From NCBI GenBank assembly GCA_951799425.1, contig OX637406.1, forward strand, positions 25,352,390 through 25,416,389: DNA of 64,000 bases, in the 5' to 3' direction. Positions 3,462 through 64,000 of this stretch are shown here, one piece after another; within the stretch, counting starts at the first letter, position 1, and each line of letters starts with the position of its first letter. Made by a program: the position numbers and the translations under genes. The notes under the pieces were generated by a model. The model searched no databases and was not told the origin of the DNA. It was given only the letters and a program-made list of their open reading frames with translations. The DNA comes from Ilex aquifolium. Taxonomy: Eukaryota > Streptophyta > Magnoliopsida > Aquifoliales > Aquifoliaceae.

Positions 3462-3979
3462 TGTAAAACCCAGGAAATTTAAACTTTTCCAAAAAAAAAA
3501 AAGGGCAAAATAGTAATTTGCCACTATAATGCGTATTTAAAATACTCATGTTCCAGACCTCGGATGAGGAAACGGAGTTCACTGTTGGATTCGTATCGTG
3601 AAATTTAGCCACCCCGTCAAATTTCGTCGAATTCCGAAGTAGTCGGATTTTGCACGTCGTTCGAGGCGACTGCGTGGCGATTTACCTTACGAACGTCCCC
3701 ATAAATAAATTTTATAAAATTTCCTTAAAATTAAGTTAAAGTTCAAATAAAATTAATTTAAACTTAAACCGGGATCAAATAAATCGTTTCGAGACGAAAT
3801 CGGACCTGATTAAGCGAATGACACGTGGCGCGACGCGGGCCGAGTATTTAAAACTATAAATAGGGGTAAATATCTAGAAAATCAGACTTTTTAGCCACTT
3901 GTGTTCTTGTTTGGCCGGCCAAGAGAGAGAAAAGAGAGAAAATAGAGAAAATAGATTTTCTTCAAGCCTTCTCCGGCGA

Positions 3980-4170
3980 TTTCCCGGACTTCCGTCGCTC
4001 GGAATCCGTCGAGCCAAGAGTCAAAGTCGATCCTCTCGACGAGGGCTACGCAACCACACCAAGAACAAGGGATTTCACCGAAGATCCAAAGGAGGAGATT
4101 TGGGGGAAATCAATTCTTGGGCTTGGGAAGTGTTCTTGAAGCGTCATTCGGGTGTTTTACGCTTCAAGAG
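3980..4170 (+). other. First conserved reading-frame block of the T LTR
   Basis: In one frame the block reads FPDFRRSESVEPRVKVD, then DEGYATTPRTRDFTEDPK. The same frame is recognisable in minus-strand T LTRs near 10258-10455, 19400-19580, 41615-41815, 43468-43660 and 54178-54390. It ends at a donor-like GTAGGG. Many differences between copies look like third-position changes. I do not recognise the protein. It might be a former leader peptide or an untranslated segment that is open by chance. Confidence 0.45.
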
Positions 4171-5259
4171 GTAGGGTTCTCCCTACCTTGGTGTAATCTT
4201 TCCTTAGTTGTTGGTAGTCTAAAGGTTTAATATGTTATGTCTATGATGGACCTTAATATATAGGGGTATGATTATAGAAATGGAAAAAGTGAGCTTAGGA
4301 ATGACTTAATCTAATTTCTAGCTTAACTTTGGTATATGAAGTTACGTGTGAATTATTATGTAACTTGGGGAAATTTGAGGCATGTTATGTGATTTATAAA
4401 TTGTGCCTAGAAGGTGTTTGATTAAATGCCTTGCTTGAATGGAATGGTTGTTTTGATCCAATTTAAATAACATGTTTAAGTTCAACTTGTGGAATCATAT
4501 GCTTATGATATGATTTGTGATTAAATGTGCTTGTTGATATATGCATGTGTTGATATATTAACATTGAGATAAGTATGGTACTTATATGCTTAGGATATAA
4601 ATTCACCATGGATGTGATGAAATTGTTCATGTGTTGTTCTTGGCATATTGAAGATTATGTTGTAAGCAATGGGACATGGCATTGCATATGCACGGAAGCA
4701 TCTCATTACATGGGTGTGTGTGCATTGGTTGATGTCAACACCACACTTGGTGATTGACGGTATGGCTTGGGGAAGTTGGGTCGAAGACCCAGCTAAGCCG
4801 CTTGATTGCATGATAAATTGGGTCGGGATGAGCAAGAAGAGGCATGATGACCTCTCGGGTGCAAGGCCCGGTGATTTGGGGGGTGCACTCCATTGGTATA
4901 AGAGCCCATAAAGTGTACGGGTGTGGAAGACCATTGGTATGAGTCCATGAAAAAGTTTGATCCCAAGAAAGACCCTAGTTTTGAAAATATCATTGATGTA
5001 AACATAAATGATAAAATGAAACACTTTGGCATTGCATCGTGTTATAGGAGTCGGAGAGGACTCGGGTTAAATTGCATGAGTGGGTGTCATCTCAATTCAT
5101 GGCATGGTGGTGTTGCATTCCAACTTAGAATGCATGTCCTTATGAGAAATGATTGTTTGCAAATGAATGTTACATGAGCATGAGCATCTAGGGGGAGAGT
5201 AGCCCTTGTAGGGTTTACTTTACTGGGCGTTGGCTCACCCTATACGGGAAACATTTCAG

Positions 5260-5309
5260 GTGTGGGGTTCGCACCGGCAGATGGCTCACTTGGAGAGCAT
5301 CAAGTATGA
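5260..5309 (+). other. Second conserved reading-frame block of the T LTR
   Basis: After TTTCAG at 5259 a short frame reads VGFAPADGS and stops at 5307-5309. Counterparts on the minus strand end at equivalent stops in 9055-9104, 18177-18226, 40490-40533, 53025-53074, 55928-55977 and 63121-63170. The shared pattern is GxGFTPADGSH-like with a terminal HQG or similar. The phase relative to the acceptor is the same in each. Confidence 0.5.
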
Positions 5310-5515
5310 AGGGGGCCGGCTTGTGGCCTTAGTTCGAGTTTTTGTAAAACTTTTGTATAAATTCTATTTTGATGTGTAAATTATGGAATTAATTGTAATG
5401 GAACTTGTACAAACAATGTTTTATGTTAATAACTTCATTAGGTATGTTTGGAATGGTTTGAATTGGATTGGAAATGAAAAAAAACTGTTGAAGTGGGCAA
5501 AACAAAACTGCCTTT

Positions 5516-5678
5516 GACTACCGGTAGTCAACAGGTAGTCGTGTACCAGTAGGGTACAGCTACCGGTAGTCAACAGGTAGTCGTAGACCAAAAGGTCACA
5601 GCTACCGGTAGTCAACAGGTAATCGTTGGTCCAGAAGGTTCCAGCTACCGGTAGTCAATAAACAGCTATCGGTAGTTA
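5516..5678. repeat. Palindromic CTACCGGTAG tandem tract in T-plus
   Basis: Three imperfect tandem units of about 60 bp plus a partial fourth each carry CTACCGGTAG followed by TCAACAGGTAGTCG. The spacers hold short inverted pairs that differ from unit to unit (GTACC..GGTAC, GACC..GGTC, TGGTCC..GGTTCC). The core is the same ACCGGT as in other LTRs, but the outer bases differ. Confidence 0.85.
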
Positions 5679-5965
5679 GTCCAAAAATCTGGAAAGTTGA
5701 AATTATTTCACCAAGCATTTGGACCTTGTTTTCTTTAGTTCCAATGACACAAATGGACCAAAATTGAGGTTGATTAGGGTACATTGGACCTTGATTGAAT
5801 TAAATGATTAAAGAAACATAGATCACAACTATGGACAATAATTCCGACTTTGGGGAATGTTAATGACGTGGTGTCGGGTTAAGCGACATCCACGGGTATT
5901 TCCGCAGGTTGACGGGTCGTCAACGGGTAATAAAAGACCCCCGGATTTTGGGGCGTCACACTTGT

Positions 5966-7190: not shown

Positions 7191-7668
7191 TCTCACAAAC
7201 TTGACTGGGAATATGAGTAACAGGAAAACCAAAAACCAATCTTTTTCGGGCAAGAAAATTTAAACTATAAAAATTTACATGCCCAAACCGCATATGCCAT
7301 AACCAATTATCACTAGAAATCACAGAACTAAAGTAAAATAAATTCTTACAATTAATTTGTAGTGGGAACAAATGATTGAGAGCCATATTTACCTTTGCTA
7401 TTAGTCCCCTACGACTGTCATTAATAGTGTAAACACTATTAAAAATCCTCATATTATACCCTTTTTCTGATAACTGCCCCATACTCAATAAATTGTGGCT
7501 AAGACCAGGAACATAATAAACATTTGAAATAGCATTCAAAGATCCATCTTTTAATTTGATAGAAATCTTATATTTCCCCTTTTGGGGGATGGTTGAAGCA
7601 TTTTCAAATTTAATGTCTGACCGAACAGACTCATTCAATTCCATGAACATCTCCCTGTGACCACACAT
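7165..7668 (-). pseudogene. Copia GAG-pre-integrase / protease-end remnant
   Basis: A 167-codon minus-strand frame includes VYYVPGLSHNLLSMGQLSEKGY, the signature just after the copia protease, then LWHMRFGHVNFYSLNFLAR with the pre-integrase H-H arrangement, and CETCILEKK, the zinc-binding Cys pair. It is the best-preserved piece of this element. Confidence 0.88.
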
Positions 7669-8598: not shown

Positions 8599-10952
8599 GT
8601 GACACCCCAAAACCCGGGGGTCCGTTGATTTCCCATCAACCCGCGGAATACCCGTGGATACTGAGTAACTCGGTATCGCGCCGTTATGCCCCATTTACCG
8701 GGGTCCATAATTTAACAAAATTCGGGCAGAGTCTCCTTTGTACGGGGAGCTCTACCCAAAACTCAACCTGTGCAATATATTTTCACATGACCCATCTGAG
8801 GCCCAATATAAAGCAATGACCGCACCGGGTCCATTTATAAGTAAACATTGACCACACCGGATCTATTTATCCATACTTATAAACATTGATCACATCGGGT
8901 CCATTTATCCCTACCTATGTCAAAACATGCAAAGTTGTTTTAACAATAATTCATATAAGTTCTATTACAATTATTTGCAAAAGATTACATGCCCAAGACA
9001 TAAGTTTCACAAGTGTTTTACATTAACACAAAATAAAGCCACATTCGGCTTTCTTCAAACATGAGGGTCCGAATTGGAGCCATCCACCGGTGTATTTCTC
9101 CCACCTGAAATGTGTTCCCGTATAGGGTGAGCCAACGCCCAGTAGAGTATATCATACAAAAGCTACTCCCCACCTTAGATGCATATGAAATGTGTACATG
9201 CAACAAACAACATTTAACAACCATTCCATACAAGAATATACATTCAATGTTGGAATGTTACCATGTCATGCCATGAAATGAGGTGAGACTCACTCATGCA
9301 TCTTAACCCAAGTCCTTACCGACTCCTACAACACAATGCAATGCCAATGTGTAGTAACCCCATCAACTGATGGAAAATACATCCAATGACTGTTTGAATT
9401 GAAAACATGTATTTGCAAAATCAAATCATTGTTGGATGTCACCCATTGAATGAGTGTTTATGTACTCAAAATCTTGTGTCTTGTTGGGCAACGGATTTTG
9501 GATTTTATACCGCCGGTTCCGTACACCATACTACACTTTTCCGGAATTTCACCACAGGGGAGTGTATAACCAAGTCGCCGGGTCTTGCACCCAAGGGGGG
9601 GATCTACCCCTTCTTGCTATACCCGACACAAGTTTTTCTTTCATGCAGCCATGCGACTCAGTCGGATTTTCAACCCAACTTTCCCGAGCCCACCCATCAA
9701 TCACCAAGAATGGTGTTTGATTAACCATGCATACACACCCACACTCATGCCTAAGCCCATGAATGTGATGTCAATGTCATGCTCAATATGCAATCATGCC
9801 CAATGAGAAATTTTATCACATGTTCAATATGTAATGGGTGTCATACGAACAATTTCAACATATCCATGGCAATTTATATTACAAACATATAAATACCATA
9901 TTTTGTCACAATGTTAATATATCAAAACATGCATATATCAACAATTCCTTCACTACAATATCCAAGCATGCTATACATCATTGTGTCATGACAAACTTTA
10001 TCCACACATAGGCATTTAGCAAACACCATCAAGGCAATCATCATGTTATCACACAATTTTCCCACATAATAACAAGTTACAAGAAAATTTCACAAGTAAC
10101 TTCCCTAGACCAAATTTAACAAGGAATTTATCTAGGCCATTTCTATATTCATTTATTGATTCCCATGACTATAGACAAGTCATAACAACTCTATACATCT
10201 AACCATTACTTATGACACCATAGGTTAGAAATGAACCAAGGTAGGAGGGAACCTTACCTCTTGGAGCGTAAAACAACCGGTAGAACCTCCAAAAATAAGA
10301 TTTAAGTCCAAATATTTGATTTTCCCAAAATCCCGTCTTTGGATCTTCGGTGAAATCAGCTCTTTTTGGTATGTACGCGTAGCCCTTGTCGCGTAGATGA
10401 ACTTTGACTTCTGGACTGACGAATTCCGACGGACAGAACTCCCGGAATCGGCGAAAGAAAACTTGAAAATCCACTTTTTCTCTCTTCTCTCTCCAAGAAC
10501 GTCCAACACTGGTTTTGAATAGATATTTTGTGTAAAATATCTAATTTAGGCCCATATTTATAGTCGCTAATGAGCGGTCCACATCGCACCGCATATTTCC
10601 GACTTCCGAGTCCGTTTTTCGCCCCAAAACGGTTCATTATAACTCGGATTAAGTTCAAATTAATTTTATTTGAACTTTCACTTTTTATTTAGGATATTTT
10701 AAAAAAAAGTGTTTTTAGGGACCCCTGAAATTTAAGTCGCCACGCAGTCGCCTCGAACGACGTGCAAAAATCCGACTATCTCGAAATTCGACGAAATTTG
10801 AGAGGGTGACTCGATTTCGCGATACGAATCCAACGGCGAACTCCATTTCCTCATCCAAGGTCTAGAGCATGAGTATTTCAAATAAGCATTAGGATGACAA
10901 ATGACCATTTTGCCCTTATTCACAAAAAATTCAAATTTGCCCGGGTTTTACA
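8599..10952 (-). mobile_element. T1: solo T-family LTR, TSD ATCTG
   Basis: Plus-strand ends are TGTGACACCCC and CGGGTTTTACA, 2354 bp, with exact ATCTG copies at 8594-8598 and 10953-10957. It sits in copia gag in a solo configuration. The donor-like GTAAGG and acceptor TTTCAG bound an intron-like span 9105-10257 on the minus strand. Unlike other T copies it lacks ACCGGT palindromes. Its left 300 bp (8700-8920) instead carry three copies of a roughly 35-bp ACCACACCGGGTCCATTTAT-type repeat, and a segment shared with R LTRs at 24190-24310. Confidence 0.92.
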
Positions 10953-17475: not shown

Positions 17476-20073
17476 TGTGACACCCCAAAATCCGGGGGTC
17501 CCGTTGATAACCCATCAACCCGCGGAAACATCCGTGGATATCGCTTAGCCCGACACCACATCAAGAATATTATTAAGCCGGGATTATAACCCATAATGAA
17601 AATTCGGTTTAACATTCATTTGATTCAATTAAAGTTCCATACACTGTGGTTTGTACCCCATTAGGGTCCACTTTGATCATCTAAGGGAAGGAAATTCAAA
17701 GCCCAAAGATTTGGCAAAACAATTGAAAATTTCAGATTTTTGGAATGACTACCGGTAGCTGTTTATCGGATACCGGTAGCCGAAACATTCTGGAGTTACG
17801 ACTACCTGTTGTCTACCGGTAGCCGAAACCTTCTGGAGTTACGACTACCTGTTGGCTACCGGTAGCTGATACACACTGGACAGTCGACTACCGGTAGTTA
17901 CCCATTGACTACCGGTAGTTGCTGCCCAGATTTGCTTTCTTGCTCCATTTTTCATTTCCAATTCATCCTAACTCAATTCCACCTCATCCAAGACATGTAC
18001 AACTATATTTTTACATTTTGCACAAGATCCATACACGACCATTACAATCTATCCCATACAAATATAATTCAAAAAGAGAATGAAATAAGTTTGTTTATAC
18101 AAAATTTACATGTCATAAACCATTGTAAAACAAAAGGTTTACAAAATCTTGAGATAAGGCCGCACTTAGGCCCCCTTCACCCTTGATGCTCTCCATGGGA
18201 GCCAATCGCCGGTGTAAACCCGACACCTGAAATTGTTTCCCGTATAGGGTGAGCACAACGCCCAGTAGAGATAAACCTATAGAGGTTACTCTTCCCCTAG
18301 ATGCACATGCTCATGTAATCATCACATAAACATATAATTAATCATTTCTCATACTTATGCATTCTATGATGGAATGCAACAATGCTATGCCATGGAATGA
18401 AGTGACACTCACCCATGCATTTCAACCCGAGTCTTCACCGACTCACACAACACAATGCAACGCCAAAGTGTAATGCAACCCGTCTATTGACGGAAAAATC
18501 CTTCCAATGATCGTTATGAAATCCGATCATTATTGGAATCTGCCCATTGAATGGGTGTTTTTATAACCAAATCCTTGTGTTTTCTTTGGGCAACGGATTT
18601 TCGGAATCACACCGCCGGTTCCGTACACCGTGTCACTTTTCTGGAATCTCACCGCCGGCCAAGTGACTCAACCAAGTGGTTTAGGGTTTTGCACCCAAGG
18701 AAGTCGCCATGCCCCTTCTTGTTATACCCAACACAAGTTTTCCTTATGCAACATGCGACTCAAAAAGGATCGTCGATCCAATTTCTCCCGAGCCCACATA
18801 TCAAGCACCAAACAAGGTGTCGATTAAATCTATGCATCTCCCACACACCAACACTCATGCAATTGTCCCATGAATGTGATGCCATGATCATGCCCAATAT
18901 GTAATGTATACAACATGAGAAATAATCAACACATATCTTCACATTCCATGGAATTTAAATCATAAGCATGTAAATTCCATAAACCATCATAAACAACATA
19001 TCAATGAGCATATGTCAATACATCAATAACACATTCAAACATGTTATTTCAATGACCCCAAACAAATCATCTAAACAACCCACCAAGGCATATTATCAAA
19101 CACCTCATAGGCACTAACATATTGTTTCATTTTAAGCAAAACAACAACTTCCAACACACAAAACATGCCTTCAATATCACCAAGTTATATAATGCATCAC
19201 ATATAACTTACACATATCAAAATTTAGCGAGCAACAAGCCTAAGCTAATTTCATGCTCACCTTTCCATTCTCATAACCATAAACACATATATATATACAT
19301 ATATACACATGCATATATATAGATACCCTTAAACTAGCTACACCTAAGGTAGAATAATCCAAGATAGGAATAACCCCTACCTCAATAGAGATGTAGGCAA
19401 TCTCTATACACCAAAATCACTCAAAAACCAAGACTTTCCCCAAACTTCACCCTTGGATATTCGGTGAAACGCCTTGTTTTTGGTACGTAGTCGAAGCCCT
19501 CACCGCGTAGAGCAACTTTAATTCTTGGTTCTTGTTGATCCGAGCGACGGAGCTCCGGGAATCCAAGAGAGAAGACTTGAAGAATTGATTTTCTCTCTTT
19601 CTCTCTTTCTCTCTTCTCACGCCTGAACCAGCCGGCCAAATGGGTATAGAATATCTGATTTTTCAGATATTTTGCCCCTTTTATACTTTTTAAGACTTGG
19701 CCCGAGTCGAGCCACATGTCCCCCACTTAATCGGGTCCGATTTTATCCCGAAACGATTTATTTGATCTCGGTTAACTTCAATTTAATTTTATTTGAACTT
19801 TAACTTAATTTTAAGGAAATTTAATATTTCTCGTTTTTTGGGACCTTTAAAAGGTCAATCGCCACGCAGTCGTCTCGAACTACGTGCAAAATCCGACTAT
19901 CTCGGAATTCAACGAAATTTCTGGTGGTCACTAGAATTCGCGTTGCGAATTCGACGACGCACTCCGTTTCCTCATCCGAGGTCTAGAACATATGTATTTC
20001 AAATACGTGCAGTAATGGCAATTTACCATTTTGCCCTTTTTCAGAAAAATTTCAAATTTTCCCGGGTTTCACA
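17476..20073 (-). mobile_element. T2: solo T-family LTR, TSD ACCAT
   Basis: Plus-strand ends are TGTGACACCCC and CGGGTTTCACA, 2598 bp, with ACCAT at 17471-17475 and 20074-20078. The empty site is visible in the Athila 3' LTR, where ATATACCATTCTATC is uninterrupted near 37410-37430. A palindromic tract lies at 17747-17921 and the intron-like span is 18227-19380. A TA/CA microsatellite is at about 19285-19322. Confidence 0.95.
17747..17921. repeat. CTACCGGTAG tract in T2
   Basis: Six or so ACCGGTAG cores are spread over tandem units of about 60 bp that share CTGGAGTTACGACTACCTG spacers. The flavour resembles T-plus (5516-5678) more than the GTACCGGTAC flavour of T4, T6 and T7. Confidence 0.85.
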
Positions 20074-39903: not shown

Positions 39904-42298
39904 TGTGATGCCCCAAAATTCGGGAGTCCGTTTATCAACCCATCAACCCGCGGAATACCCGTGGATGCCGGTTAACCCGACACCGCGGCACCACATTCCC
40001 TTCACAGGAATTTATAAAAAAAATACAAGTCCAATTAATTTAGGTTAGTTGACCCATCCGAGGTCCAATATACCACCATTGGTATCCTATTATTGTCCAT
40101 TTGTAACATTGGAAGGAAGGAAAATATAGCCCAAAGACTTGGCAAAAGAAAAAAAAAAAAAAATTCTGAGTTTTTGGAAAGTGTACCGGTATGCGTACCG
40201 GTACGGCGAGCTCACTGGTCCTGGCCGTACCGGTACGCCCCACCTTCTGGACAGCTCTGTACCGGTACGCTCTGTCCACCTTTGCCCATTTCACCTGTTT
40301 TTCGACTCCAATCCATTCCAAATCTCACCAAATTCATCTCAAACTTACACAACATGTATTTATACATTAAAACATGATTGATACAAGTTCTATTACAATT
40401 ATTGACATAAATTTACATGCCAAAACTGAGTTTTTATAAATATTTTTACAAAAACTTCAAGTAAAGCCACATTCCGGCTTTCTTCCTCCTCAAGTGCCTG
40501 AGTGAGTGTCGTCCGTCGGCGTAAAACCCGCACCTGAAATGTTTTCCCGTATAGGGTGAGCCACGCTCAATAGGGTATCTCCTAAAGAGGCTAATCCCCA
40601 ACCTATATGTATATGAAATGTTCACATGCCAACAAATCAACAATTCTTAACATTCCAATTTAGAATATGCATTCCTTATTGGAATCTACCATGTCATGCC
40701 ATGAAATGAGATGGGACTCACTCACGCACATCAATCCCGAGCCCTTCCCGGCTCCTCACACATGCAAGTGCCAATGTGTATGAAATCCGTCATTTATGTT
40801 ACACATCAAATGACATAACAATCTAGGGTCTTTATAGGGGTGGATGTTCATGGACTCACACCAAGGGTCACCCAACCCACACGGAATTGACGGACTTCCG
40901 CCGAGGGTTCCGCGTACACTCACACACTTTATGGGCCGAGCCAAGGGAGTGCGTATCCCAATCACCAGGTCTTGCACTCGAGGGATCTTCTAACCCTTCT
41001 TACTACCCCAACCCTATCAACCATGTAAACCGTGCGACTCGGCTAGGTTTTCAACCAAGCTCATTCGAGCCCACCCGTTATCCACCAAATGTGGTGTTGA
41101 CGACACCCATGCACCCACACCACATATGCGATGTTCCCGTGCATAATGCAATGTAATGCCTCATTACAACATGATACAAAGTTCAATATGCAATGAATGA
41201 CATATGAACTATATTAACATATTTCACGTATTCCATGGCCAAATTATATCATAAACATATAATTTCCATACCTCTTCACAAAGTCAATATATCATAAACA
41301 TGTATATATATCAACAATTCACATAACTCAACTCCCAAGCATGTTATCAACACACTAGATTTTCAAGGCATATGTAAACACATAAACATGCCACAATTTC
41401 ACATCACACAATAATCACATTGGGTCTATTTCACCTACACAATTCTAGAAATCACAATTAACAATTTCTAATCACCAATCCAAGCTAGGATTTATCTTTA
41501 CCCATTTCAATACCCATTTAACAACAATAGGCAATGATACTTGAATCTATCCATGTTCCCATTTCACCTAAGCATTCTAGGTTTGGAATAAACCATAGTA
41601 GAAGGGAATCCTACCTCTTGTAGCGTAAAACGAAGTGTAGAGAACTTCGAGAACACCTCACTAGCCCCAAAAACCTTGATTTCTCCAAAGCCTCCTCTTG
41701 GATCTTCGATGAAATTCCTTGTTTTTGGTGTGGTTGTGTAGCCCTCGTCGATGTGATCGACTTTAGTTCTTGGCTCGACGGATTCCGACCAACGGAACTC
41801 CGGGAATCGACGAAAGAAGATTGGATTTTTGATTTTTCTTCTCCTCTCTCCCTCACACGTTTACACACTGGTTTGGGCAGAAAATTCTGCCTAAAATGCA
41901 GATATTTGCTCCTATTTATAGTTTTAATACTTGACCCACGTCGCGCCACGTGTCCGGGTCCGTTTTCGCCCCGAAACGATTTATTTGATCCCGGTTTAAG
42001 TTCAAATTAAATTTATTTGAACTTTAATTCAATTATAAGGAAATTTTATAAAATTTATTTGTAAGGACCTTTGTGAGCTCAGCCGCCACCCAGTCGCCTC
42101 GAACTACGTGCAAAATCCGACTATCTCGGAATTCGACGAAATTTGACAGGGTAACTAGATTTCGCAATACGAATCCAACGGCGAAGTCCGTTGTGTCATA
42201 CGAGCTCTAGAAACACGAGTATTTTAAATACGCATTATAGTGGCAAATGACCATTTTGCCCTTTTTTAGAAAAAATTCAAATTTACCCGGGTTTTACA
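39904..42298 (-). mobile_element. T4: solo T-family LTR, TSD CATCC
   Basis: Plus-strand ends are TGTGATGCCCC and CGGGTTTTACA, 2395 bp, flanked by exact CATCC at 39899-39903 and 42299-42303. It landed inside the short second reading-frame block of T5. It has a GTACCGGTAC tract at 40181-40271, an intron-like span 40534-41614 and a TATA-like box on the minus strand at about 41920-41932. Confidence 0.93.
40181..40271. repeat. GTACCGGTAC tract in T4
   Basis: Four ACCGGTA cores with CTGGTCC or CTGGACAG spacers. It follows the shared ATTCCAAATCTCACC..CCATTTCACC cassette when read from the minus strand. Confidence 0.8.
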
Positions 42299-44160
42299 CA
42301 TCCACTGACGCTTGTCCCGCACCTGAAATGTTGTCCCCATAAAGGTTGAGTCATGCTCAATATGGTATCTTCTAAAGAGGCTACTTCCCAACCTAGATGC
42401 ATATGAAATGCTCACATGCAATTCAACAATCAACAATCAATAGACAATCCATTTAGGAATATGTAATTTATAATGGAATACTTTATGCCATGACATGTAA
42501 TGAGATGAGACTCACACATGCAACGCAACCCGAGCCTTCACCGACTCCCATATCACACGCCATGTCATGCTTATAAATCCGGGCATTCCAAGCCCCCGCC
42601 ATTAATGTTGCACATCCACTGACCATTATAATCCCGGGTCTTTCTTGGGGTGGGTATTTATAGACTTACACCAGCAGGCACCCAACCAAAACACCATTTA
42701 TGGACTTCCACCAATGGCTCTGCATGTGCCGACACACTTTATGGACTCAATACCAATGGAGTGCGTGTCCAAATAACTGGGTCTTGCACCCGAGGGATAG
42801 TCTAGCCCTTCTTGCTAACCCCAACCCTATTTTCAATGCAAACCCGTGCAACTCAATCGAATATTGATCCAACTTTTCCGAGCCCACGCATCATCCACTA
42901 AGAATGTTGTTTGATCAAAACCATGCACACACACCCAACTCATGTCATATGCCCACGAATGTGATGCTACCCCTGCATATGCAATGTAGTGTGCTATTGC
43001 ATTTAATATCATTATGCAACCAAGTTTTCAATCGTAATATCAACATCATGTTCAACATGTCACGAGCACAATATGAATAACATTCCATCTCAACAATATT
43101 CTCAATTGTCAATTTATATCATATGCATATAAATTACAATATATATTCTCACCAAGCATGTTATAACATTTTCAATGGAACAACCATGCTAAATTAACCT
43201 AGGCATTTTATCAAACACCTTTATAGCACATAATCACATAAACACATAATATGCCCTATCCATCACATTTCTCATGAAATTATTAAACAAGCAATTTCAA
43301 CAACCCAATTCATGCAAGAATTGATTTTAACCATTCTTAAACCCAATTTTCACATTTCAACCACAATAGGTATGTGCCATACATGAGATTACATCCCTAA
43401 CACCCTACCCATTTCATATTTCACTCAACGTTGGAAATAAACCTAGCTAGGAGAAAAACCTTACCCCTTGAAGGGTAATTCGAGCTGTAGAAAATTACCA
43501 AGGACCCAAATCAAGCTTTAACCCTTGATTTTCAAAAATCGCGTCTTTGAGACTTTGGTCAAATCCCCGATTTTTGGTATGTAGGCATAACCCTCGTCTC
43601 GTAGATGAACTTGAGTTCTTGGCCCGAAGGATTTCGACCAAATGTTGGCCCTAGATCGTAGAGAAAAGATGAAGAATACTTGATTTTTCTCTTTCCTCTC
43701 TCCCTTCTCTCTTTTTTCGAAATTCAGTTGGGTATGGAGAGAAAATCTGATTTTTCTCCCCTATTTATACCCCTTTGATACTTGGCCCCCTTTGCGCCAC
43801 ACGTCCGCCTTTCTCGGGTCCGATTTCGTCCCAAATTAATTAAATCTCGTCCCAATTCAAGTTCAATATATTTTTATTTGACCTAAATTTAAATTATTTT
43901 TCACTTTTTGCAATTAATTTTCAATCGCATTTATTTTGGTCACGCGACACCCAATCGCCACGTAAAAGGTAAAAAATTCGAGTATCTCAGAATTCAATAA
44001 AAATTGATTGGGCAACTAGATTTTGCGAGACAAATGCAACAGTGAGGTCCGTTTCATCATCCGAGTTCTAGAAAAGTTTGGGTTTTCAACCCGTATCATA
44101 GTAGCTAATTACAGTTTTGCCATTTTTTCATAAAAATTCAAAATTTTCCCGGGTCTTACA

Positions 44161-52416: not shown

Positions 52417-54871
52417 TGTGACGCCCCAAAAACCGGGGGTCATTTATAAGTCCGTTGATCAACCATCAACCCGCAGAAATACCCGTGGATACTGGTTAAC
52501 CCGACACCGTGGCACCACATCCCCTTTACCGGGGATTAAAAAAAAAATTACAAGTCTATATGCTTTCGGTTGATTGACCCATCCGAGGTCAAATATACCG
52601 CCATTGATACTCTATTATTGTCCATTTATAACATTGGAGGGAAGGAACTCACAACCCAAAAGCTTGGCAAAACAATTTTAAAATTTCTGATTTTTGAAAA
52701 ATGTACCGGTACTGCGTACCGATACGGTTTGCCTGCTGGATTGCGCCGTACCAGTACGCTGTACAGCGTACTGGTACGCTTTACCTGCTGGACCACAGTG
52801 TACCGGTACGCCGTGCCCAGTTTTGCCTCTTTTGCCTATTTTTCATTTCCAATCCATTCCAAACCTATCTACAATCATCCCAAACTTATACAACATGTAT
52901 TTATACCTCAAATATAGTTGGTACAAGTTCCATTACAATCATTTGCATACATTACATGTCATAAACTAAGTTTTCATAATTGGTTTACACAAAACCCAAA
53001 ATAAAGCCACATCTCGGCTTTTCTTCACCCTTGATGGCCCGAATGAGATCCGTTCACTGGCGTGTGACCCTCACCTGAAATGTTTTCCCATATGGGGTGA
53101 GCTACGCTCAATAGAGTGTCTCCTACAGAGGCTACTCCTCAACCATGATGCATATGAAGTATGCACATGCAACAATCAACAACATTTATTCATTCCAAGC
53201 AAGAACATGTGAGTCAAGATTGGAATTTAACCATGTAATGCCATGATATGAGATGATACTCACCCATGCACTTAACCCGAGCCCTCACCGACTCCCGCAA
53301 CACAATGCAATGCACTTGTATAAAACGTTTATCCTTGATGAAATATGTCCAATGATCGTTTGAAATAAAAATCATATGTTTTATAAAACCAAATCATTGT
53401 AGGATGTTTTCATCAAAAGAGTATTTTCATAAATCAAAACCCTTGTGTCTTTGTTGGGCAACGGATTTTTAAAATCGCACCACCGGCTCCGGACGCCATT
53501 ACACTTTTTTGGACTTGCACCGACGGAAGTTTATAAACCAATAGTCGGGTTTCGCACCCAATGGAGAGTCTAGCTCTTCTTGCTATACCCGACACAAGTT
53601 TTTTTTTTCCATGCAATCCATGCAACTTAGCCGGGTCTTCGATCCAAATTTCCCGAGTCCACTTATCAACCACCAAATGAGGTGATCAACCATGCATACA
53701 CACACCCCTACTCATGACTTATGCCCATGAATGTGATGCAATATCATGCTCCATATGCAATATATGTCAAATGAGCAACATTAACCACATATCATCATAT
53801 TCCATGGAAATTGATATCATATGCACATAATTTCCATAATTCATCATCAAGCTAACATATCAGAAAGCATATGTTCACATGTCACTAACAAAGCCCAACA
53901 TGTTATTCCAATTATATCAAAATAACAGTTTCAGTCAATCAAGGCATTTTATCAAACACCTTCAAGGCACCAATTATGTTAAACACATATCATGCCAAAA
54001 TTTCACCAAGTTACAAGAAATTACACAAGTAACTTTTCCACACAGAATTCAAGCTATTTCAATACCCATTTCCTCCTTTCCATAACCATAGGCATATAAT
54101 AGTTTGTTTTATACGCCTAACCCTCTTCCTATGAACATCATAGGTAGGAATAAAACCAAAGTAGGAAGAACCTTACATCTTGACGCGTAAAACGAAAGGT
54201 AGAATTGTCAAGAACACCAACCATGACCCCAACTCTTGATTTCTCCAAAATCTTCCTTTTGGATATTCGGTGAAATCCTTCGTTCTTTGTGTGGTTGCGT
54301 AGCCCTCGTTGAGTAGATCGACTTCAACTCTTGGCTCGACGGATTCCGACCGAAGGAACTCCGGGAATCGACGAAAGAAATCTTGGATTTCTCTCTTTCT
54401 CTCCCTCTTTCTCTCCAACGTTCAAGCCAGCAGAAAATCAGAGATATTTGTGGCAAATATCTGATTTTTTAACCCTATTTATAATTTCCAAGGCTAGGCT
54501 CAGATCACGCCACACGCCCCCCACTTGTTCGGGTCCGTTTTTACCCCGAAACGATTTATTTGATCCCGATTTAAGTTCAAATTAATTTTATTTGAACTTT
54601 AATTCAATTATAAGGAAATTTTATATTTTTCATTTATGGGGACCTTTATGAGGTCATTCGACACAGTCATCTCGTAAAACGTAAAGAATCTGACTATCTC
54701 AGAATACGACGAAATTAGTTTGGGTGACTCGATTTCGCGATACGAATACAACGGCGAAGTCTGTTGTGTCATATGAGCTCTAGAGAGAACGTATTTTAAT
54801 TCCCGCATTATAGTGGCAAATAACCATTTTACCCTTTTTCGAATAAATTTCAAATTTACTCGGGTTTTACA
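52417..54871 (-). mobile_element. T6: 3' LTR of the T chromovirus
   Basis: Plus-strand ends are TGTGACGCCCC and CGGGTTTTACA, 2455 bp, with the polypurine tract immediately to its right. It has a palindromic tract at 52702-52812, an intron-like span 53075-54177, and a TATA-like box on the minus strand at about 54473-54485. It pairs with the partial LTR at 62574-64000. Confidence 0.93.
52702..52812. repeat. GTACCGGTAC tract in T6
   Basis: Units of ACCGGTAC or ACCAGTAC type are spaced by CCTGCTGGA. The partner LTR (62857-62900) has only a short version, so the tract changed in length after insertion or during reverse transcription. Confidence 0.82.
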
Positions 54872-55150: not shown

Positions 55151-57770
55151 TGTGACGCCCCAATCTCCGGGGGTCCTATATTAACCGTTGACCACCCGTC
55201 AACCCGCGGAAATAACCATGGATGTCACTCAACCTAACACCACGGTAGTAGCATCCCCTTAACCGGGATCTTAATTCACCATTGTTAACCGGATTCGATT
55301 ATTCATTTGGGTTCAACCAATATTCGATATACCATGATTTATACTCCATTTACATCATTGGAGGGAAAGGAAACGTAGATTGAAAATAGGGCGAAGTAGT
55401 GTGAAAATCTGAAAATTTTGAAGAGAGTACCGGTACCCAGTACCGGTACCATTCAGTACCGGTACCAGGTACCGGTACTATCAACCCACTGGAAAGGGGG
55501 TACCGGTATCCAGTACCGGTACCATTCAGTACCGGTACCCGGTACCGGTACTGTCAACCCACTGGAAAGAGGGTACCGGTGTCCAGTACCGGTACCATTC
55601 CGTACCGGTACTGTCAACCCACTGGAAAGAGGGTACCGGTGTCCAGTACCGGTACCATTCCATACCGGTACCCAGTACCGGTACCATTCAGTACCGGTAC
55701 CCAGTACCGGTACTCTCTGCCCAGTTTTGCCATTTTCAACCATTTTTCCTTTCCAATCCATTCAAAACCCTTCCCAACTCATCAAATACATGTTTGACAA
55801 GGATTTCCATATAAAACATGGTTTATACAAGTTCTATTACAATTGATTCCATACATTTACATATCAAAATGGAATTCTTTTCAAAAGCTTTTACAAAACA
55901 ACAATAAAAGCCACAAGTCGGCTTTCTTCAACCTTGGGGCTCGAAATGGGAGCCGTCCGCCGGTGTGAACCCCGCACCTGAAATGTTTTTCCCACAAAGG
56001 GTGAGCCACGCTCAATAGGGTATTTCCTAATGAGGCTACTCCCCAACCTATATGCATATGAAATGTTCACATGCCACAAAACAACAATTCATAACATTCC
56101 AAGCAATAAAATGTATTCAATGTTGGAATTTCACAATGTCATGCCATGTAATGAGGTGAGACTCACACATGCATATCACCCGAGCCCTCCCCGGCTCCTC
56201 TACACATGCAAACGCCAATGTGCACCAATCCGTCATTTATGTTGCACATCAAATGACATTTTTATTCTAGGGTCTTTCTTGGGGTGGATATTTATGGACT
56301 TACACCAACGGCACCCAACCGACACGGAATTTATGGACTTCCACCAACGGTTCCGCGTACACCGACACACTTTATGTGCTCTATACCAACGGAGTGCGTC
56401 TCCGATCACCGGGTCTCTCACCCGAGGGATAGTCTAGCCCTTCTTGCTACCCCAACCCTAACAACCATGCAAACCGTGAGACTCGACTAGGTCATCGACC
56501 CATATTACCCGAGCCCACTTGTCATCCACCAAGCGTGGTGAAGACAACCACCATGCACACACACCCACTAAATGCGATGTTCCCGTGCATATGCAATGTG
56601 ATGCTCCATTGCGACAATATTATCATGTTCAATATGCTATGAGTAACACATGAACATTCTAATCACATTTCACATATTTCATGGCAAAATTATATCATAT
56701 ACATATAATTTCCATAATTCTCTACAATGTCAATATATTACAAACATGAAAATATATCAACATTTAATCTTAATCAACACCCAAGCATGTCATCACATTA
56801 TCAAGAAATAACATACTTCAATTTCAAGGCATAAGATAAACACATAGCATGCCCACACTTCACATAGCCCAAGTGTCACATTGGGTTAATTTCATATACT
56901 CAATCCTAGAGATTTCATTTAGAAACTTCTAATTACCAATCCAATTAGAATTTATTTCAACCCATTTCACCCAATTTCACAACCATAGGCAAATGACATA
57001 TACATATACATATCTATTCATTTACCCATTTCACCTAAGCATTCTAGGTGTGGAATAAACCTTGGTAGGAGGGAACCCTACCTCTTGAAGCGTAAGGAAC
57101 GACGTTGAGAAGCCTCCTAGACCCGATTCGAGCTCAAAGCCCTAGCCTCCAAAAATCCCGTCCTTGAATTCTCTCCAAAACCCGACCTCCTTGGTATGGT
57201 TTTGTAGCTCTTGGCGAGGGGAACAACTTTCTCTCTTGGCCCGAGTGGATTTGAGCTCCGTGGAGACGAGGATCTTAGAGAGAAGGTGGAGAAAACCTAG
57301 CTTTTCCCTCTCCTCTTTCTCACGCTAAAACCGGCTGAACAAATGGGGAGAGAAATCTGATTTTCTCCCCTTTAAATACTCTTTAAATGCTTGGCCCACA
57401 ATGCGCCACACGGCCCTTATTTTCCGGGTCCGTTTTAACCCCGAAACGATTAAATTTCGCTCCGGTTCAAGTTCAAAATATTTTTATTTTAACTTGCCGT
57501 CATTTATTTCCCAAAATTTAAAATTTTAAATCAGAATCTCGTTTTTGGGTCTCCCGAGGCTCGACCGCCTCGTAAAACGCGAAAAATCCGACTAACTCGG
57601 AATTTAATGAAATTTGACAGGGTAACTAGTTTTCGCGAGACGAATCCAACGGTGAGGTTCATTTCGTCATCCAATTTCTAGAAAATTTCAGGTTTACAAC
57701 CTGTACCATAGTGGCAATTTACCATTTTGCCTTTTTTTTCACAACAGTTCAAATTTTCTCGGGTTTTACA
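55151..57770 (-). mobile_element. T7: solo T-family LTR, TSD GGTTC
   Basis: Plus-strand ends are TGTGACGCCCC and CGGGTTTTACA, 2620 bp, flanked by exact GGTTC at 55146-55150 and 57771-57775. It is inserted in the integrase tail of a related T element, so it is younger than that element. It has the largest palindromic tract in the window (55427-55715) and an intron-like span 55978-57080. Confidence 0.95.
55427..55715. repeat. Largest GTACCGGTAC tract (T7)
   Basis: About fifteen TACCGGTA cores lie in 289 bp, in tandem units of roughly 60-73 bp ending CAACCCACTGGAAAG. Both strands give long frames here (Arg/Tyr/Val/Pro-rich) purely because the repeat lacks stops. The stretch could form many alternative hairpins. 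Confidence 0.92.
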
Positions 57771-57775
57771 GGTTC

Positions 57776-58994
57776 CATCCGCATCAACAACAAGCTCGCC
57801 CCAATCCACCACATGAGTCGGATCTGGGGTGTATTTACGGAACATGGAGACATGGAATACCGCGTGAACACCCGATAGATTTGGCGGTAACGCCAACCGG
57901 TAAGCAACTGTACCAATCCTCTCAAGTACTTCAAAGGGCCTGATGTACCTCGACGACAGCTTTCCCCGCTTGCCGAACCTGACCACTCCTCTTTTAGGCA
58001 TCACCTTCAAGAAGACATGATCTCCTACCTCAAACTCTAGAGGTCGCCGCCGTTTGTCAGCGTAGCTCTTCTGCCGGCTCTGAGCCGTGAGAAGACGCTT
58101 CCGTATCAAGTCCACCTTCTCCGAGGTGTCTCTAACCAATTTCGGACCCGTAGAGGGTCTCTCTCCTACCTCCGTCCAACAAACCAGAGAACGACAAGGC
58201 CTCCCATATAGTGCCTCATAGGGTGCCATCTATATGCTCGCCTGATAACTATTCTTGTAGGCGAACTCCACTAAGGTTAGGTGCTCTTCCCAGCTACCCT
58301 TGAGATCTAGGACGCATGCCCATAGAATGTCCTCTAAAGTCTGGATGGTCCTCTCCGACTGACCGTCCGTCTGGGGATGAAAAGTAGTGCTCATCATCAA
58401 CTGTGTCCCCATGGCTCGCTGGAAACTCTCCCAAAAATGAGCAGTAAACCTTGGATCATGATCTGATACTATAGATACGGGCACCCCATGCAACCGGACA
58501 ATCTTCCGTATATACAACCTGTAGAATTCCTCCAGTGTGAAGGTCATTCGCACCGCCAAAAAGTGTGCCGACTTCATAAGCTGGTCCACTATCACCCATA
58601 CCGCGTCATGCCCTCGCGATGTTCGTGGCAAGTGGGTCAAAAAATCCATCGTGACATGTTCCCACTTCCACTCAGCTACCTCCAAAGGCTGGAGTAATCC
58701 TGCTGGTCTCTGGTGCTCAGCCTTGACCTGCTGACACGTGAGACATCGTCTGACAAAATTCCCCACTTGTCTTTTCATTCCGCTCCAATAATACTGGCGA
58801 CGAAGATCATGGTACATCTTCGTGCCACCTGAATGCACAACAAAATGAGAGCAATGGAACTCTCTAAGGATCTCCTCTCTCAGCTCCGCTGACTGGGGAA
58901 CCACAATCCTTCCCCTAAACCGAAGACTACCATCCGTATGAATGGTCCAGCCCTCGTCGCATGTACTTGACCGTACTCGGTCTCTAATGGACAA
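57776..58994 (-). pseudogene. T chromovirus integrase
   Basis: On the minus strand, 58994 down to 58230 gives the zinc-binding His/Cys region (HSGGTKMYHDLR, CLTCQQVK), then TMDFLTHLPRTSRGHDAV with the first catalytic Asp, VSDHDPRFTAHFWESF with the second, and TDGQSERTIQTLED with the Glu. From 58229 down, MAPYEALYGRPCRS and the GPY/F-type RYIRPFEVLERIGTVAYRL and HAVFHVSMFRKY follow. It is well preserved. It would insert the element DNA into chromatin, probably heterochromatin if the chromodomain-like tail works as in other chromoviruses. Confidence 0.92.
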
Positions 58995-60570
58995 TATCTC
59001 TGGGTCTTACCCCTGGGACTCAATCACCCGATTTAGTAGGGAAGGCGTAGCCACCAAACTTCCCAAAGTGCCCTGAACCTGACCAATATAGCGTAGCCCG
59101 AACTGCCCCACAGTCTCGAGCATCTACCATTCCCGGGAGGCCACACTAGCCAAGACTCCCCGTGACTTCTGACTGAGTGCATCAGCCACCACATTTGCCT
59201 TACCGGGATGGTAATGCAAAGTGAAGTCATAATCCTCCAGATACTCCATCCACCTGCGTTGCCTCATGTTGAGGTCCCGCTGTGTAAAGATATATTTAAG
59301 ACTTTTGTGGTCCGAAAATACCTCGAATTGCTCACCATATAGATAGTGGCGCCAAGCCTTCAAGGCAAAGACTATGGCCGCCAACTCCATGTCATGTGTG
59401 GGGTAATTCTGCTCGTGGTTCTTTAACTGCCAAGAACCATAAGCCACTACCCTCCCAGACTGCATCAAAACGCATCCAAGTCCGTCCTTAGAGGCATCAC
59501 AATACACTGTGTACCTTTGTCCCCTTTTCAGAACTATCAGAATAGGAGCTGACGTAAGCCTCCTCTTCAACTCCTAGAATGCCTTCTCACACGAGTCATT
59601 CCACTCAAACTTGACCTCTTTTTGGGTCAACTTGGTCATAGGTGCAGCTAATCGGGAGAAGTCCTCGATGAACCTCCTGTAGTACCCTGTCAATCCCAAG
59701 AAACTGCGTATCTCGAAGACTGACTTCGGTCTCTCCCAATTCATGACTGTCTCAACCTTCTCCTAGTCCACAGATACACCCGAAGCCGACACCACATGTC
59801 CTAAAAATTTCACCTCCGTGAGCCAAAATTCACACTTGCTGAACTTGGCGTATAACTGGTAGTCTCTCAAGGTCTGGAGAACGATCCTCAAGTGACCCTC
59901 ATGCTCCTCCTCAGACTTGGAGTAGATCAAGATGTCGTCAACAAAGACTAGGACAAACTGATCTAAGTAGGGTTGGAACACCCTATGCATGAGATCCATG
60001 AATGTCGTCGGGGCATTCGTCAATCCAAAGGGCATCACGGTGAACTCAAAATGTCCATACCACGTTCTGAACTCTGTCTTAGGGATATCTACCTCCCTAA
60101 CCCTCAATTGATGGTAACCGGTGCAGAGATCTATCTTTGAGTAGACCCGCGCCCCTCTCAGCTGATCAAATAAATCGTCAATCCTCGGCAAAGGGTACCT
60201 ATTCTTGATAGTAACTCTATTTAACTGTCGATAGTCTATGCATAGTCAAAGGGTCTTGTCCTTCTTCTTGGCAAACAACACCGGAGCGCCCCAAGGTGAA
60301 GTGCTCGGTCTAATAAAGCCCCTGTCCAACAATTCTTGTAATTGGACCTTGAGTTCTTGCAATTCAGTAGGTGTCATCCTATGTGGAGTCATAGAAATGG
60401 GCGATGTACCGGGGTGTAACTCAATGGTGAAGTCGACATCCCTAGGTGGAGGTAATCCCGGTAGTTCATCTAGAAAAACATCCTCATACTCACAAATCAC
60501 CAGAGGTAGACCAAACTCCTGTCTCGCCTCATCCTCCAGGGTAAGGCTTGCTAGCCAACCCATCAACTGC
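58995..60570 (-). pseudogene. T chromovirus reverse transcriptase and RNase H
   Basis: The minus strand from about 60570 reads [14 protein letters not shown], then [20 protein letters not shown]. 60191-59763 gives [32 protein letters not shown] and the active site [12 protein letters not shown]. RNase H is at 59570-59124 ([46 protein letters not shown]). All expected blocks are in order. The frame is interrupted at a few points. Confidence 0.93.
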
Positions 60571-61010
60571 TCGGGTCATCTAGAGTCATACACAGCTTGG
60601 GGTAAAGCATCATGCTTTTCCCATTGGAACTTGAAACAAACAACCTCCGGTGTGTAGGCAGTGACCCTCTTACGATCACAATCAATGACGACTCGGTGTG
60701 CCGCCAACCAATCCATCCCAAGGATGACATCAAACTTCGACATGTCCATGACTCTAAGGTCCACAGTGAGTAGAGTCCCTGAGATCTCTAACTCACAACC
60801 CCGACATATCTGATCAATCCTCACCCTAGCTCCTAGGGGAGAACTCACATGCAATGGCTCTTCCAAGGTTTCGACTTCTAAGCCCAAATCTTTCACACAT
60901 GATACAACAATAAAAGAATGAGATGCACCAGAGTCAAATAATACTCTTGCCCATAAGCGAGAAAGTAGAAATGTACCCTGAATAACCGACTAATCTGCTG
61001 GCTCAGTCTG
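60571..61010 (-). pseudogene. T chromovirus protease
   Basis: The minus strand around 60960-60890 has the aspartic-protease type VLFDSGASHSFI. The flap and C-terminal half follow in 60896-60576 (LGARVRIDQICRGCELEI, VDLRVMDMSKFDVILGMDWL). FDVILGMDWL is the usual end of chromovirus protease. It lies between gag and RT as expected. Confidence 0.88.
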
Positions 61011-62216
61011 AGGCATAATGGCGTAGACACACCCCTGGGTCCCTGAAGTCCAGGCTTGTGAGCCCTGTCCTCGACCTCGATCCATGCTCTGGCCCATCTG
61101 GCCTGATTGCGGAGTCCCTGCTCATGAAGTAGTAGGCGCTTGTGCAGCACCCTGGGACTGGTACTGGCTTCCCTGGCCCATGGTGGGGTATGAAGGAACA
61201 AAACGTGTCTGTGGCTGCCCTACTGAAGACTGAGACTGGGATGTCCCAAAGCTCTGGGATCCCTGTCGCTGAGGACAATCCTGCTTCATATGCCCAGGTT
61301 GATGGCAATGAAAACAAGTCCTTTGGCTTGTCTGGTAAGAAGGCCTCTAATTTCTCCCGCCTTGGGAGGATTGACCCTCGCCTTGGCCTTGATAGCCACG
61401 GCCCTGTCCTGGCTGTCCCTGCAGAGTGAAAGTCTTCTAGCTCTTTCCCGACCTAGAAGAAAAGGATTGGCCTTCCTTCTTCTTATCCTTAACACTCGCT
61501 TCCCAGATGTTTCGTGCATCATCTATCTCTCTCTCAATGGCCATAGCTGTCTTGACCATCAAGTCCAAGTCTTGCAGGAGAAGTCCCACAATTTTACCCC
61601 GGATAGACAATTTCAGACCATCCTCAAACTTCCTCACGTTGGCCATATCTGTGGCCACATAGTCGTCGGCAAAACGAGCTAATTCTGTGAACTTAGCCAC
61701 ATATTCCAACACCGTCATTGTCCCTTGTTTCAAATCTAGGAATTCCCGAGCCTTAGCTTGCCGGACAGACGCCGGAAAATATTTGCCCATGAAGAGCTCT
61801 TTGAACTCCTCCCATGTCATCGCCTCCAAATTTTTAGAGGACTTTGCCCAATCCCACCACACTTGGGATTCTCCCTCTAGCTAGAAAGTAGCTAGCATTA
61901 TCTTAGTGGCATCGGAGGTGATCTCCATAGCCCCTAAAATCTTGTCGACTTGTCGGAACCAATGGTCAGCCACCATCGGATCCGCCCCTCCCATGAAGGT
62001 CGGAGGCTTGTGTGCCTTAAACCTCTAGAGGTTACTAGAGCCTCCTTGGCCCACACTTGCACTAGCTTGTGCAATAGTAGCAGCCGCTGCACTGGCCTAT
62101 GCAATGGTAGCAACCGCAACACCAATAGCCTCCCCAAAGGCTTGTTGATCAACGGTCGGTGGTGGTTGGTTGTTGTTCCGTCCACCTCCTCGGCGTCCTC
62201 TCCCTCTATTTTCCAT
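61011..62216 (-). pseudogene. T chromovirus gag with zinc knuckle
   Basis: The first Met on the minus strand is at 62216 (MENRGRGRRGGGRNNN), 343 bases after the primer site. The gag core in 61862-61437 reads VWWDWAKSS, TWEEFKELFMGKYFP and AKAREFLDLKQGTMTVLEY. A CCHC knuckle, CFHCHQPGHMKQDC, lies at about 61275-61320. Gag would assemble the particle around element RNA. It is broken at a few points. Confidence 0.9.
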
Positions 62217-62558
62217 CTACACATATGTCAAATAGCAATAGAGCCTCATATAGTATCCCAAGATAGGGATCAAGCGCAAACGTTGATAACTCTCTATTTG
62301 TCCCCCTAGTAGAACGTGTGTCACATACTAGCAGACATTTACACATTGAACTATCCCGTTCATCACTTTTTCCGAACTCCCAAGGTTATGTTTTCTAACC
62401 CTAGCATTTCCCTTTCCATATACATTCTACCATGCATATAATTCATATAACACAGAACACAGAACATGTAACATATTAAAGCACATAACATGAAATGCAC
62501 AATGAATGCAATGGTCTAGACCCATGCCCATCAAGCCCCAGGTATATCGTATACCTAG
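62217..62558 (-). other. Leader of the T chromovirus
   Basis: About 340 bases between the primer site and gag. It is AT-rich with no gene. It would include packaging and dimerisation signals, which I cannot identify by eye. Confidence 0.6.
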
Positions 62559-62570
62559 GCTCTGATACCA
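62559..62570 (-). promoter_or_regulatory. Primer-binding site of the T chromovirus (tRNA-iMet)
   Basis: The minus strand reads TGGTATCAGAGC, three bases from the LTR border at 62574. It is an exact match to the plant tRNA-iMet primer site. Confidence 0.95.
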
Positions 62571-62573
62571 AGT

Positions 62574-64000
62574 TGTGACGCCCCAAAAACCGGGGGTCAT
62601 TTATAAGTCCGTTGATCAACCATCAACCCGCAGAAATACCCGTGGATGTCGGTTAACCCGACACCGTGGCACCACATCCCCTTTACCGGGATTAAAAAAA
62701 AATTACAAGTCTATATACTTTCAGTTGATTGACCCATCCGAGGTCCAATATATCGGCATTGGTACTCTATTATTGTCCATTTATAACATTAGAGGGAAGG
62801 AACTCATAGCCCAAAAGCTTGGCAAAACAATTTTAAAATTTTTTATTTTTGAAAAGTGTACCGGTACTGGTACGCTGTACCTGCTGGACCACAGTGTACC
62901 AGTATGCCGTGCCCAGTTTTGCCTCTTTCACCTGTTTTTCATTTCCAATCCATTCCAAACCTATCTACAATCATCCCAAACTTATACAACATGTATTTAT
63001 ACCTCAAATACAGTTGGTACAAGTTCCATTACAATCATTTGCATACATTACATGTCATAAACTAAGTTTTCATAATTGGTTTACACAAAACCCAAAATAA
63101 AGCCACATCTCGGCTTTTCTTCACCCTTGATGGCCCGAATGAGATCCGTTCACTGGCGTGTGACCCTCACCTGAAATGTTTTCCCGTATGGGGTGAGTTA
63201 CGCTCAATAGAGTGTCTCCTACAGAGGCTACTCCTCAACCATGATTCATATGAAGTATGCACATGTAACAATCAACAACATTTATTCATTCCAAGCAAGA
63301 ACATGTGAGTCAAGATTGGAATTTAACCATGTAATGCCATGATATGAGATGATACTCACCCATGCACTTAACCCGATCCCTCACCGACTCCCGCAACACA
63401 ATGCAATGCACTTGTATAAAACGTTTATCCTTGATGACATACATCCAATGATCGTTTGAAATAAAAATCATATGTTTTATAAAACCAAATCATTGTAGGA
63501 TGTTTTCATCAAAAGAGTATTTTCATAAATCAAAACCCTTGTGTCTTTGTTGGGCAACGGATTTTTAAAATCGCACCACCGGCTCCGGACGCCGTTACAC
63601 TTTTTTGGACTTACACCGACGGAAGTTTATAAACCAATAGTCGGGTTTCGCACCCAATGGAGAGTCTAGCCCTTCTTGATATACCCGACACAAGTTTTTT
63701 TTTCCATGCAATCCATGAAACTCAACCGGGTCTTCGATCCAACTTTCCCGAGTCCACATATCAACCACCAAATGAGGTGATCAACCATGCATACACACAC
63801 CCCCACTCATGACTTATGCCCATGAATGTGATGCAATATCATGCTCCATATGCAATAGATGCCAAATGAGCAACATTAACCACATATCATCATATTCCAT
63901 GGAAATTGATATCATATGCACATAATTTCCATAATTCATCATCAAGCTAACATATCATAAAGCATATGTTCACATGTCACTAACAAAGTCCAACATGTTA
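62574..64000 (-). mobile_element. T8: 5' LTR of the T chromovirus (partial at window edge)
   Basis: It starts TGTGACGCCCC on the plus strand and follows T6 closely to the window end, which is about 1430 of an expected 2450 bp. The palindromic tract (62857-62900) is about 70 bp shorter than in T6. From about 63065 on the two are almost identical by eye. Confidence 0.93.

Follow-up and report, generated by a model that had tools for sequence, protein, structure and literature searches.

A probable leader intron from the long terminal repeat to the gag start codon in a Ty3/gypsy retrotransposon of Ilex aquifolium

The T element, an LTR retrotransposon of Ilex aquifolium, probably contains a leader intron of ~2.0 to 2.2 kb that would run from a 5′ splice site inside the LTR to the gag AUG. 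This reading of the genomic sequence rests on the conservation of splice-like sites among LTR copies, on the scarcity of AUG in the putative first exon, and on one genomic copy in which exon 1 is joined exactly to gag. The window is the whole stretch of DNA analyzed here, 64,000 nucleotides of contig OX637406.1 (positions 25,352,390 to 25,416,389, forward strand), and feature coordinates are window positions; its T LTR copies are called T1 to T8. A first-pass annotation had proposed that these LTRs hold two conserved reading-frame blocks, block 1 before a donor-like site and block 2 after an acceptor-like site ~1.1 kb away. The splice-like sites are real, and the coding reading is unsupported.

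Results

Identity of the T element and its copies in the window

The element formed by T8 (62574..64000, minus strand), its 5′ LTR, which is cut by the window end, and T6 (minus strand), its 3′ LTR, has pieces of gag, protease, RT, RNase H, and integrase between the LTRs (Pfam domains; 57678..61880, minus strand). The domains lie in the order typical of Ty3/gypsy, gag, protease, RT, RNase H, integrase, a primer-binding site (PBS) adjoins the 5′ LTR, and 5-bp target duplications are seen at T1, T2, T7, and the C6 copy described below; the T LTRs are part of a Ty3/gypsy plant element. The PBS, TGGTATCAGAGC (62559..62570, minus strand), which is presumably of the tRNA-Met type, follows the T8 LTR and lies inside the proposed leader intron. 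Since both the gag-pol domains and the PBS are on the same strand as the donor, the splice signals described below lie in the sense of the element. From its general look, the element may belong to the Tekay/Del chromovirus clade, in which the integrase has a C-terminal chromodomain; the one integrase piece scanned, near which T7 is inserted, matches Pfam SH3_Tf2-1 and gave no chromodomain match.

T1 (3462..5960, plus strand) is 2499 bp long, with TG...CA ends and CTTGT on both sides, and T2 and T7 likewise have matching 5-bp flanks; all three look like solo LTRs. T7 (55151-57770, minus strand), flanked by GAACC, is nested in the T6/T8 element, and its family is probably recently active, since it has many genomic copies that are mostly 98 to 100% alike to T7 and often paired ~7.6 kb apart. 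The T4 LTR starts 24 nt past the T5 acceptor (42298-42322, minus strand), and block 2 of T5 is gone. Short CTACCGGTAGTC-like repeats lie in the T1 LTR at 5518-5660, downstream of exon 2, and ACCGGTAC-rich repeats occupy a similar place in T7 and T8. A single sub-threshold Rfam match to SNORD107 at 5768-5843 was taken as chance. A fragment at 7165-7671 (minus strand) with Pol_BBD and gag_pre-integrs domains is, we assume, probably a Ty1/copia-type remnant.

A conserved donor and an acceptor within the LTR

In T1, a TATA-type box, TATAAATAGG (3855..3864, plus strand), lies upstream of a 5′ splice site, GAG/GTAGGG (4171..4176, plus strand). Transcription would start at ~3887, which would give an ATG-free leader exon, exon 1 (3887..4170, plus strand), that includes block 1 (3981-4090). 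The acceptor-like site that the first-pass annotation had paired with this donor, TTTCAG/GTG (5254..5259, plus strand), lies inside the LTR and is referred to here as A1. The annotation had listed seven donor-to-A1 spans; all exist, with T1 to T4 exact, including those of T2 (9105..10257), T3 (18227..19380), and T4 (40534..41614), whereas the true donor ends of T5, T6, and T7 lie 3, 1, and 1 nt from the positions listed, and the spans are corrected to 42323..43464, 53075..54176, and 55978..57081, respectively (T2 to T7 all on the minus strand). It had also found that T8 shows the acceptor side alone, which is true within the window, but the window end is the cause, and the sequence extending T8 beyond it (L010) has GAG/GTAGGG. 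The donor form GTAAGG does occur in T2 and T6, but it is likely private to those two copies, because GTAGGG is present both in L039, a 98% relative of T2, and in L010, the partner LTR of T6. The sequence GAG/GTAGGG differs from the textbook plant donor.

Conservation was assessed in an alignment of 41 copies, after two of 43 sequences had been set aside because they duplicate window copies. Also left out were T8, L012, L036, and L037, for which exon 1 and exon 2 were not recovered in the expected order. The copies from outside the window were the best matches to two queries plus one fetched T2 relative, and the set therefore leans to relatives of T1 and T6. The donor GT is kept in 40 of the 41 copies (GTAGGG in T1) and the AG of A1 in 39. 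Among T1 to T7, the mean pairwise identity per column, with gaps counted as mismatches, is 0.51 overall, and by the same measure it is 0.60 to 0.70 in block 1, 0.73 in the donor region, 0.82 at A1, and up to 0.84 in the intron. The blocks are thus not the most conserved parts of the LTR, since A1 and parts of the intron exceed them, and A1 is among the most conserved parts across these seven divergent copies.

This conservation of A1 has no account in a model in which the donor is joined to gag, and it bears on the rival reading in which the donor is joined to A1, over the 1.1-kb span of the earlier proposal, either exclusively or as a second option, such as in solo LTRs or the 3′ LTR. A CTCAC motif before A1, which we take to resemble a plant branch point, would suit such a role. 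However, no donor-A1 junction was found in the genome at up to 2 mismatches, and the nine matches at 3 mismatches (against 1 for the control) look, from the matched letters alone, like variant unspliced donors or chance. The sequence past A1 is also not poor in ATG (31, compared with 22.2 in dinucleotide shuffles), so splicing to A1 alone would not free gag, and the spliced product that was found in the genome, described below, runs from the donor to gag rather than to A1. We therefore regard the 1.1-kb intron as doubtful, at perhaps one chance in a few, and the joining to gag as the better-supported use of the donor.

Scarcity of ATG in exon 1 and the ATG load of the unspliced leader

For ATG counts, exon 1 was taken from 32 nt past the first TATA-type motif up to the donor. 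The counts in T1 to T7 are 0, 0, 0, 0, 1, 1, and 0, a sum of 2, compared with 14.2 (sd 3.0) in dinucleotide shuffles of exon 1, none of 200 of which was as low. TAG (10 versus 18.6), TGA (20 versus 28.0), and GTA (6 versus 11.1) are also low relative to shuffles, and GAT is not. Over the 41 copies, which are related and non-independent, exon 1 has 29 ATGs compared with 217 expected from base composition, and the highest count in one copy is 5 (L032). The intron from the donor to A1 has 343 ATGs, against 334.7 in dinucleotide shuffles and about twice the expectation from base composition. The intron is also richer in U, at 0.31 to 0.34 against 0.24 to 0.29.

In six elements, the unspliced leader up to the gag ATG is 2293 to 2525 nt long and contains 75 to 95 ATGs, of which 0 to 2 are in exon 1. 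The simplest explanation for so few AUGs in the first ~275 nt is that a real start codon follows in the mature RNA.

A genomic copy with exon 1 joined to gag

In the T6/T8 element, an acceptor AG, A2 (62217..62218, minus strand), stands directly before the gag ATG (62216-62214). A TAG lies directly 5′ of the gag start position in 13 of the 15 gag starts read (L006, L008, L010, L011, L014, L016, L038, L040-L044, and L049, with L044 having the TAG and an altered start codon), the exceptions being L050 and L052. The 15 include neither the spliced copy L045 nor L023, in which no gag follows the TAG. L023 is a T6-type copy whose likeness to its relatives ends at this TAG, roughly 370 nt beyond the PBS (reversed strand), where other sequence takes over.

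The donor-gag junction was fixed as a prediction ahead of the genome scan, in which up to 3 mismatches gave two places, compared with two for the reversed control. One of the two, with 2 mismatches, is on C6 (L045) and has the end of exon 1 joined to gag; the other, at C9:30198164, was set aside, as was C4:29269782, on the matched letters alone. The 5′ part of L045 comprises the LTR start, U3, TATA box, and exon 1, and is 69 to 73% alike up to the junction to T1, T2, and T4, the window copies that align to it that far, whereas from the junction on it is gag-pol sequence 81.6% alike to the T6/T8 element. Its own 3′ LTR (L047) keeps the donor, the intron, and A1, and over 707 positions of U3 and exon 1 the two ends are 89.4% alike. 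Up to the donor, 56 of 60 bases are the same as in this 3′ LTR, and from the ATG onward 54 of 60 are the same as in the relative L049; past the junction the likeness is lost on both sides (8/30 and 12/30). A 301-nt query across the junction matched end to end at L045 only among the 40 matches scored, the other 39 stopping at the junction (18 on the exon side and 21 on the gag side). Exon 1 of L045 has 3 ATGs, and that of its 3′ LTR has 1. The donor-like site of the first-pass annotation is thus supported, beyond what that annotation proposed, by this copy, which has the exact product of such a donor.

Unspliced counterparts are numerous, with 3,882 donor places and 1,985 gag-start places in the genome at no more than 1 mismatch and no control matches, and no second spliced copy was found with further junction patterns across the genome, one of which gave six places. 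A stricter pattern gave two places, L045 and L050, and L050 proved to be unspliced with a changed acceptor. The candidate L052 (C18:3800800-3802000), a T2-type element in which a piece of leader is missing between the PBS and gag, was rejected because its deletion does not start at GT, and L051 and L053 are unrelated sequence.

L045 is best read as a cDNA of a spliced RNA, given that it combines the exact predicted product with intact ends. A short-homology deletion is formally still conceivable, in that the same 2 nt (AG) occur on both sides of the junction and only a single such copy is known, but an ordinary deletion would have had to end by chance on both predicted positions, exact at the donor and at the gag ATG, which are ~2.1 kb apart in relatives, while leaving the LTR ends and the flanks of L045 intact; we consider this very improbable. 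Those flanks are ATTTT on both sides, an AT-rich sequence that could match by chance. L045 lacks the PBS and so would have needed help to be copied, for example, if unspliced and spliced RNA were packaged together and the template was switched from one to the other. The rarity of spliced copies fits an intron that takes out the primer site.

Codon pattern of the two blocks

Block 1 was described as a conserved reading frame, and it is indeed open in all copies: the seven window copies align over its 110 nt with neither gaps nor stops, and none of the 43 copies has a stop when columns absent from T1 are left out. Its codon pattern, however, is not that of coding sequence. The proposed comparison of synonymous and nonsynonymous change gives a pN/pS of 1.02 for the seven window copies, 1.37 for T1 to T4 plus T6, and 0.94 for ten representatives that include one further subfamily; values near 1 show no purifying codon pattern. 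Differences by codon position number 252, 279, and 220, so that third positions vary least. Indels do not respect the frame either, since among the 43 copies there are four 1-nt insertion columns and gaps of 10, 15, and 25 nt, each in single copies, some of which break the frame. The frame in T1 has no CAA, CAG, CGA, or TGG codons, which means that transitions make no stops and that the openness of block 1 is weak evidence for coding. T1 moreover has a stop at 4137-4139, between block 1 and the donor.

Block 2 (5260..5310 in T1, plus strand) was reported to keep its phase in every copy read, with a stop at a constant place, but it is not in every copy, since in T5 the block is cut off by the T4 LTR, and in T4 the stop lies elsewhere. 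In the claimed frame, pN/pS is 0.53 (6 copies, 51 nt), and a third-position excess as large is reached by 373 of 20,000 permutations (16 codons, 9 copies), a figure uncorrected for the frames and blocks tried. We regard this codon-like signal as a weak hint. It is, together with the open frame of block 1, what could be said for a small conserved protein encoded by the LTR from the two blocks, which we find scarcely credible, for in block 1 we reject a coding LTR on the codon pattern, the indels, and the few ATGs of exon 1. The best explanation of the conserved blocks is that they are untranslated leader sequence.

A small predicted hairpin lies in exon 2 at 5310-5335 (GGCC/GGCC or AAAGCC/GGCTTT), with changes on both sides, and it is also found at the same place in T2 to T4, T6, and T7.

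Predicted RNA folds

Conserved RNA folds are predicted in the T1 intron (4700..5180, plus strand). RNAalifold on 14 copies gave a summed energy of -147 in sense compared with -53 in column shuffles, and of -82 compared with -29 in antisense; since the antisense ratio is the same as the sense ratio, the fold excess is no sign of strand-specific selection. The largest sense energy is at T1 5037-5133 (-18.0 versus -7.1), and some segments with small energies have a larger z. A possible hairpin at the donor, AGGTAGGG-TTCT-CCCTACCT (4169..4188, plus strand), places the donor GT inside the stem. Its mean z over 11 copies is -1.56; in 4 of the 11, no more than 4 of 200 shuffles reach so low a value, and in T4, T5, and L048 it is no better than shuffles. 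A further hairpin at the end of exon 1, which by eye appeared compensatory, was rejected, its mean z over 11 copies being -0.91; only in T1 and L039 do 4 or fewer of the 200 shuffles reach so low a value.

These folds bear on the question of whether common descent alone, or a role in promotion or packaging, has kept the donor, blocks, and folds without any splicing. In favor of this explanation are the relatedness of the copies, several stretches of intron that match the exon in conservation, and folds that are more stable than column shuffles, to a similar degree on the antisense strand. It would, however, leave both the scarcity of ATG in exon 1 and the exact donor-gag copy unexplained, and we consider it unlikely, preferring splicing from the donor to gag.

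Discussion

In the model that we favor, the T LTR would carry a promoter, a 5′ splice site, and, between them, a first exon nearly free of AUG. RNA begun in the 5′ LTR of a full element would be spliced from the donor to the TAG/ATG acceptor at the gag start, and the intron removed would include the rest of the LTR, the PBS, the untranslated region, and all but a few of the upstream AUGs. Such an intron lies upstream of gag, whereas an Ogre-type facultative intron lies between gag-protease and RT. What remains after splicing would be an RNA with a leader of ~275 nt and the gag AUG as its next, or nearly next, start codon, and splicing would turn the -3 position of that AUG from T to G. A G at -3 provides a better AUG context. 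With a short leader, few or no AUGs to pass, and this improved context, the spliced RNA would be translatable by scanning, while the unspliced RNA, with the PBS and a folded leader, would be the template for copying. A1 may act in solo LTRs or in the 3′ LTR, or may have some other function.

A close parallel is Diaspora, a Ty3/gypsy element of soybean related to Athila, which resembles the T element in its long leader and in its software-predicted splice sites, with donors inside the LTR and acceptors around the gag start (PMC1142308). It differs in belonging to another lineage and, as far as the cited part of that report extends, in resting on prediction, whereas the T element has a genomic copy of the junction; its authors stated in 2005 that an intron in this place, upstream of gag, was as yet unreported among LTR retroelements (PMC1142308). 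In maize, most of the UTR is spliced out in CRM4TR cDNAs, though these derive from CRM4-derived tandem repeats of another clade and not from an element with its gag, according to the section cited (PMC3648361). We found no report of an LTR-to-gag intron in the clade of the T element in the open-licence literature.

A 2025 review describes plant LTR retrotransposons as generally intron-free, names Ogre and EVADE as notable exceptions, and cites BARE1 as well (PMC12786077). Ogre and EVADE are like the T element in being plant LTR retrotransposons with facultative introns that yield different RNAs, but in the accounts cited their introns are inside the coding region and do not run from the LTR to gag (PMC12786077, PMC6317226). 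Direct RNA sequencing revealed spliced and unspliced isoforms of the sunflower elements Tyran and Varan, but these are isoforms of the coding sequence, with a truncated Gag, and the passages cited describe no leader intron from the LTR to gag (PMC7730604). Sunflower Tekay elements are absent or underrepresented among expressed elements in the cited portions of two reports (PMC7730604, PMC9784723). BARE1 resembles our model in having separate RNA pools for translation and copying and a spliced form for Gag, yet its intron, in the description cited, is 104 nt long and near the end of gag, and its pools differ by cap and poly(A) (PMC3735527). Outside plants, foamy viruses share with the T element a donor within the LTR, and the cited excerpt places their major splice donor in R, upstream of the poly(A) site, with RNA structure controlling its use (PMC3694450). 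They differ in being retroviral and in making pol from a specific spliced transcript, as that excerpt has it (PMC3694450). By analogy with foamy virus, the hairpin at the T donor could limit splicing.

One problem posed by LTR retrotransposons is how a single transcript is shared out between translation and copying, and a leader intron from the LTR to the gag AUG would make that division by splicing alone. It would also explain how gag is reached past 75 to 95 upstream AUGs. If the model is true, every intact LTR would contain a splice donor, which would matter for host transcripts as well as for annotation. More tentatively, and with somewhat less than even confidence, we suggest that the LTR acts as a portable unit of promoter, AUG-poor exon, and donor, such that in full elements the spliced RNA alone is translated and the unspliced RNA alone is copied, while dispersed LTRs, solo LTRs included, splice onto and drive host exons. 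In that case, host exons downstream of thousands of dispersed LTRs would gain few upstream start codons.
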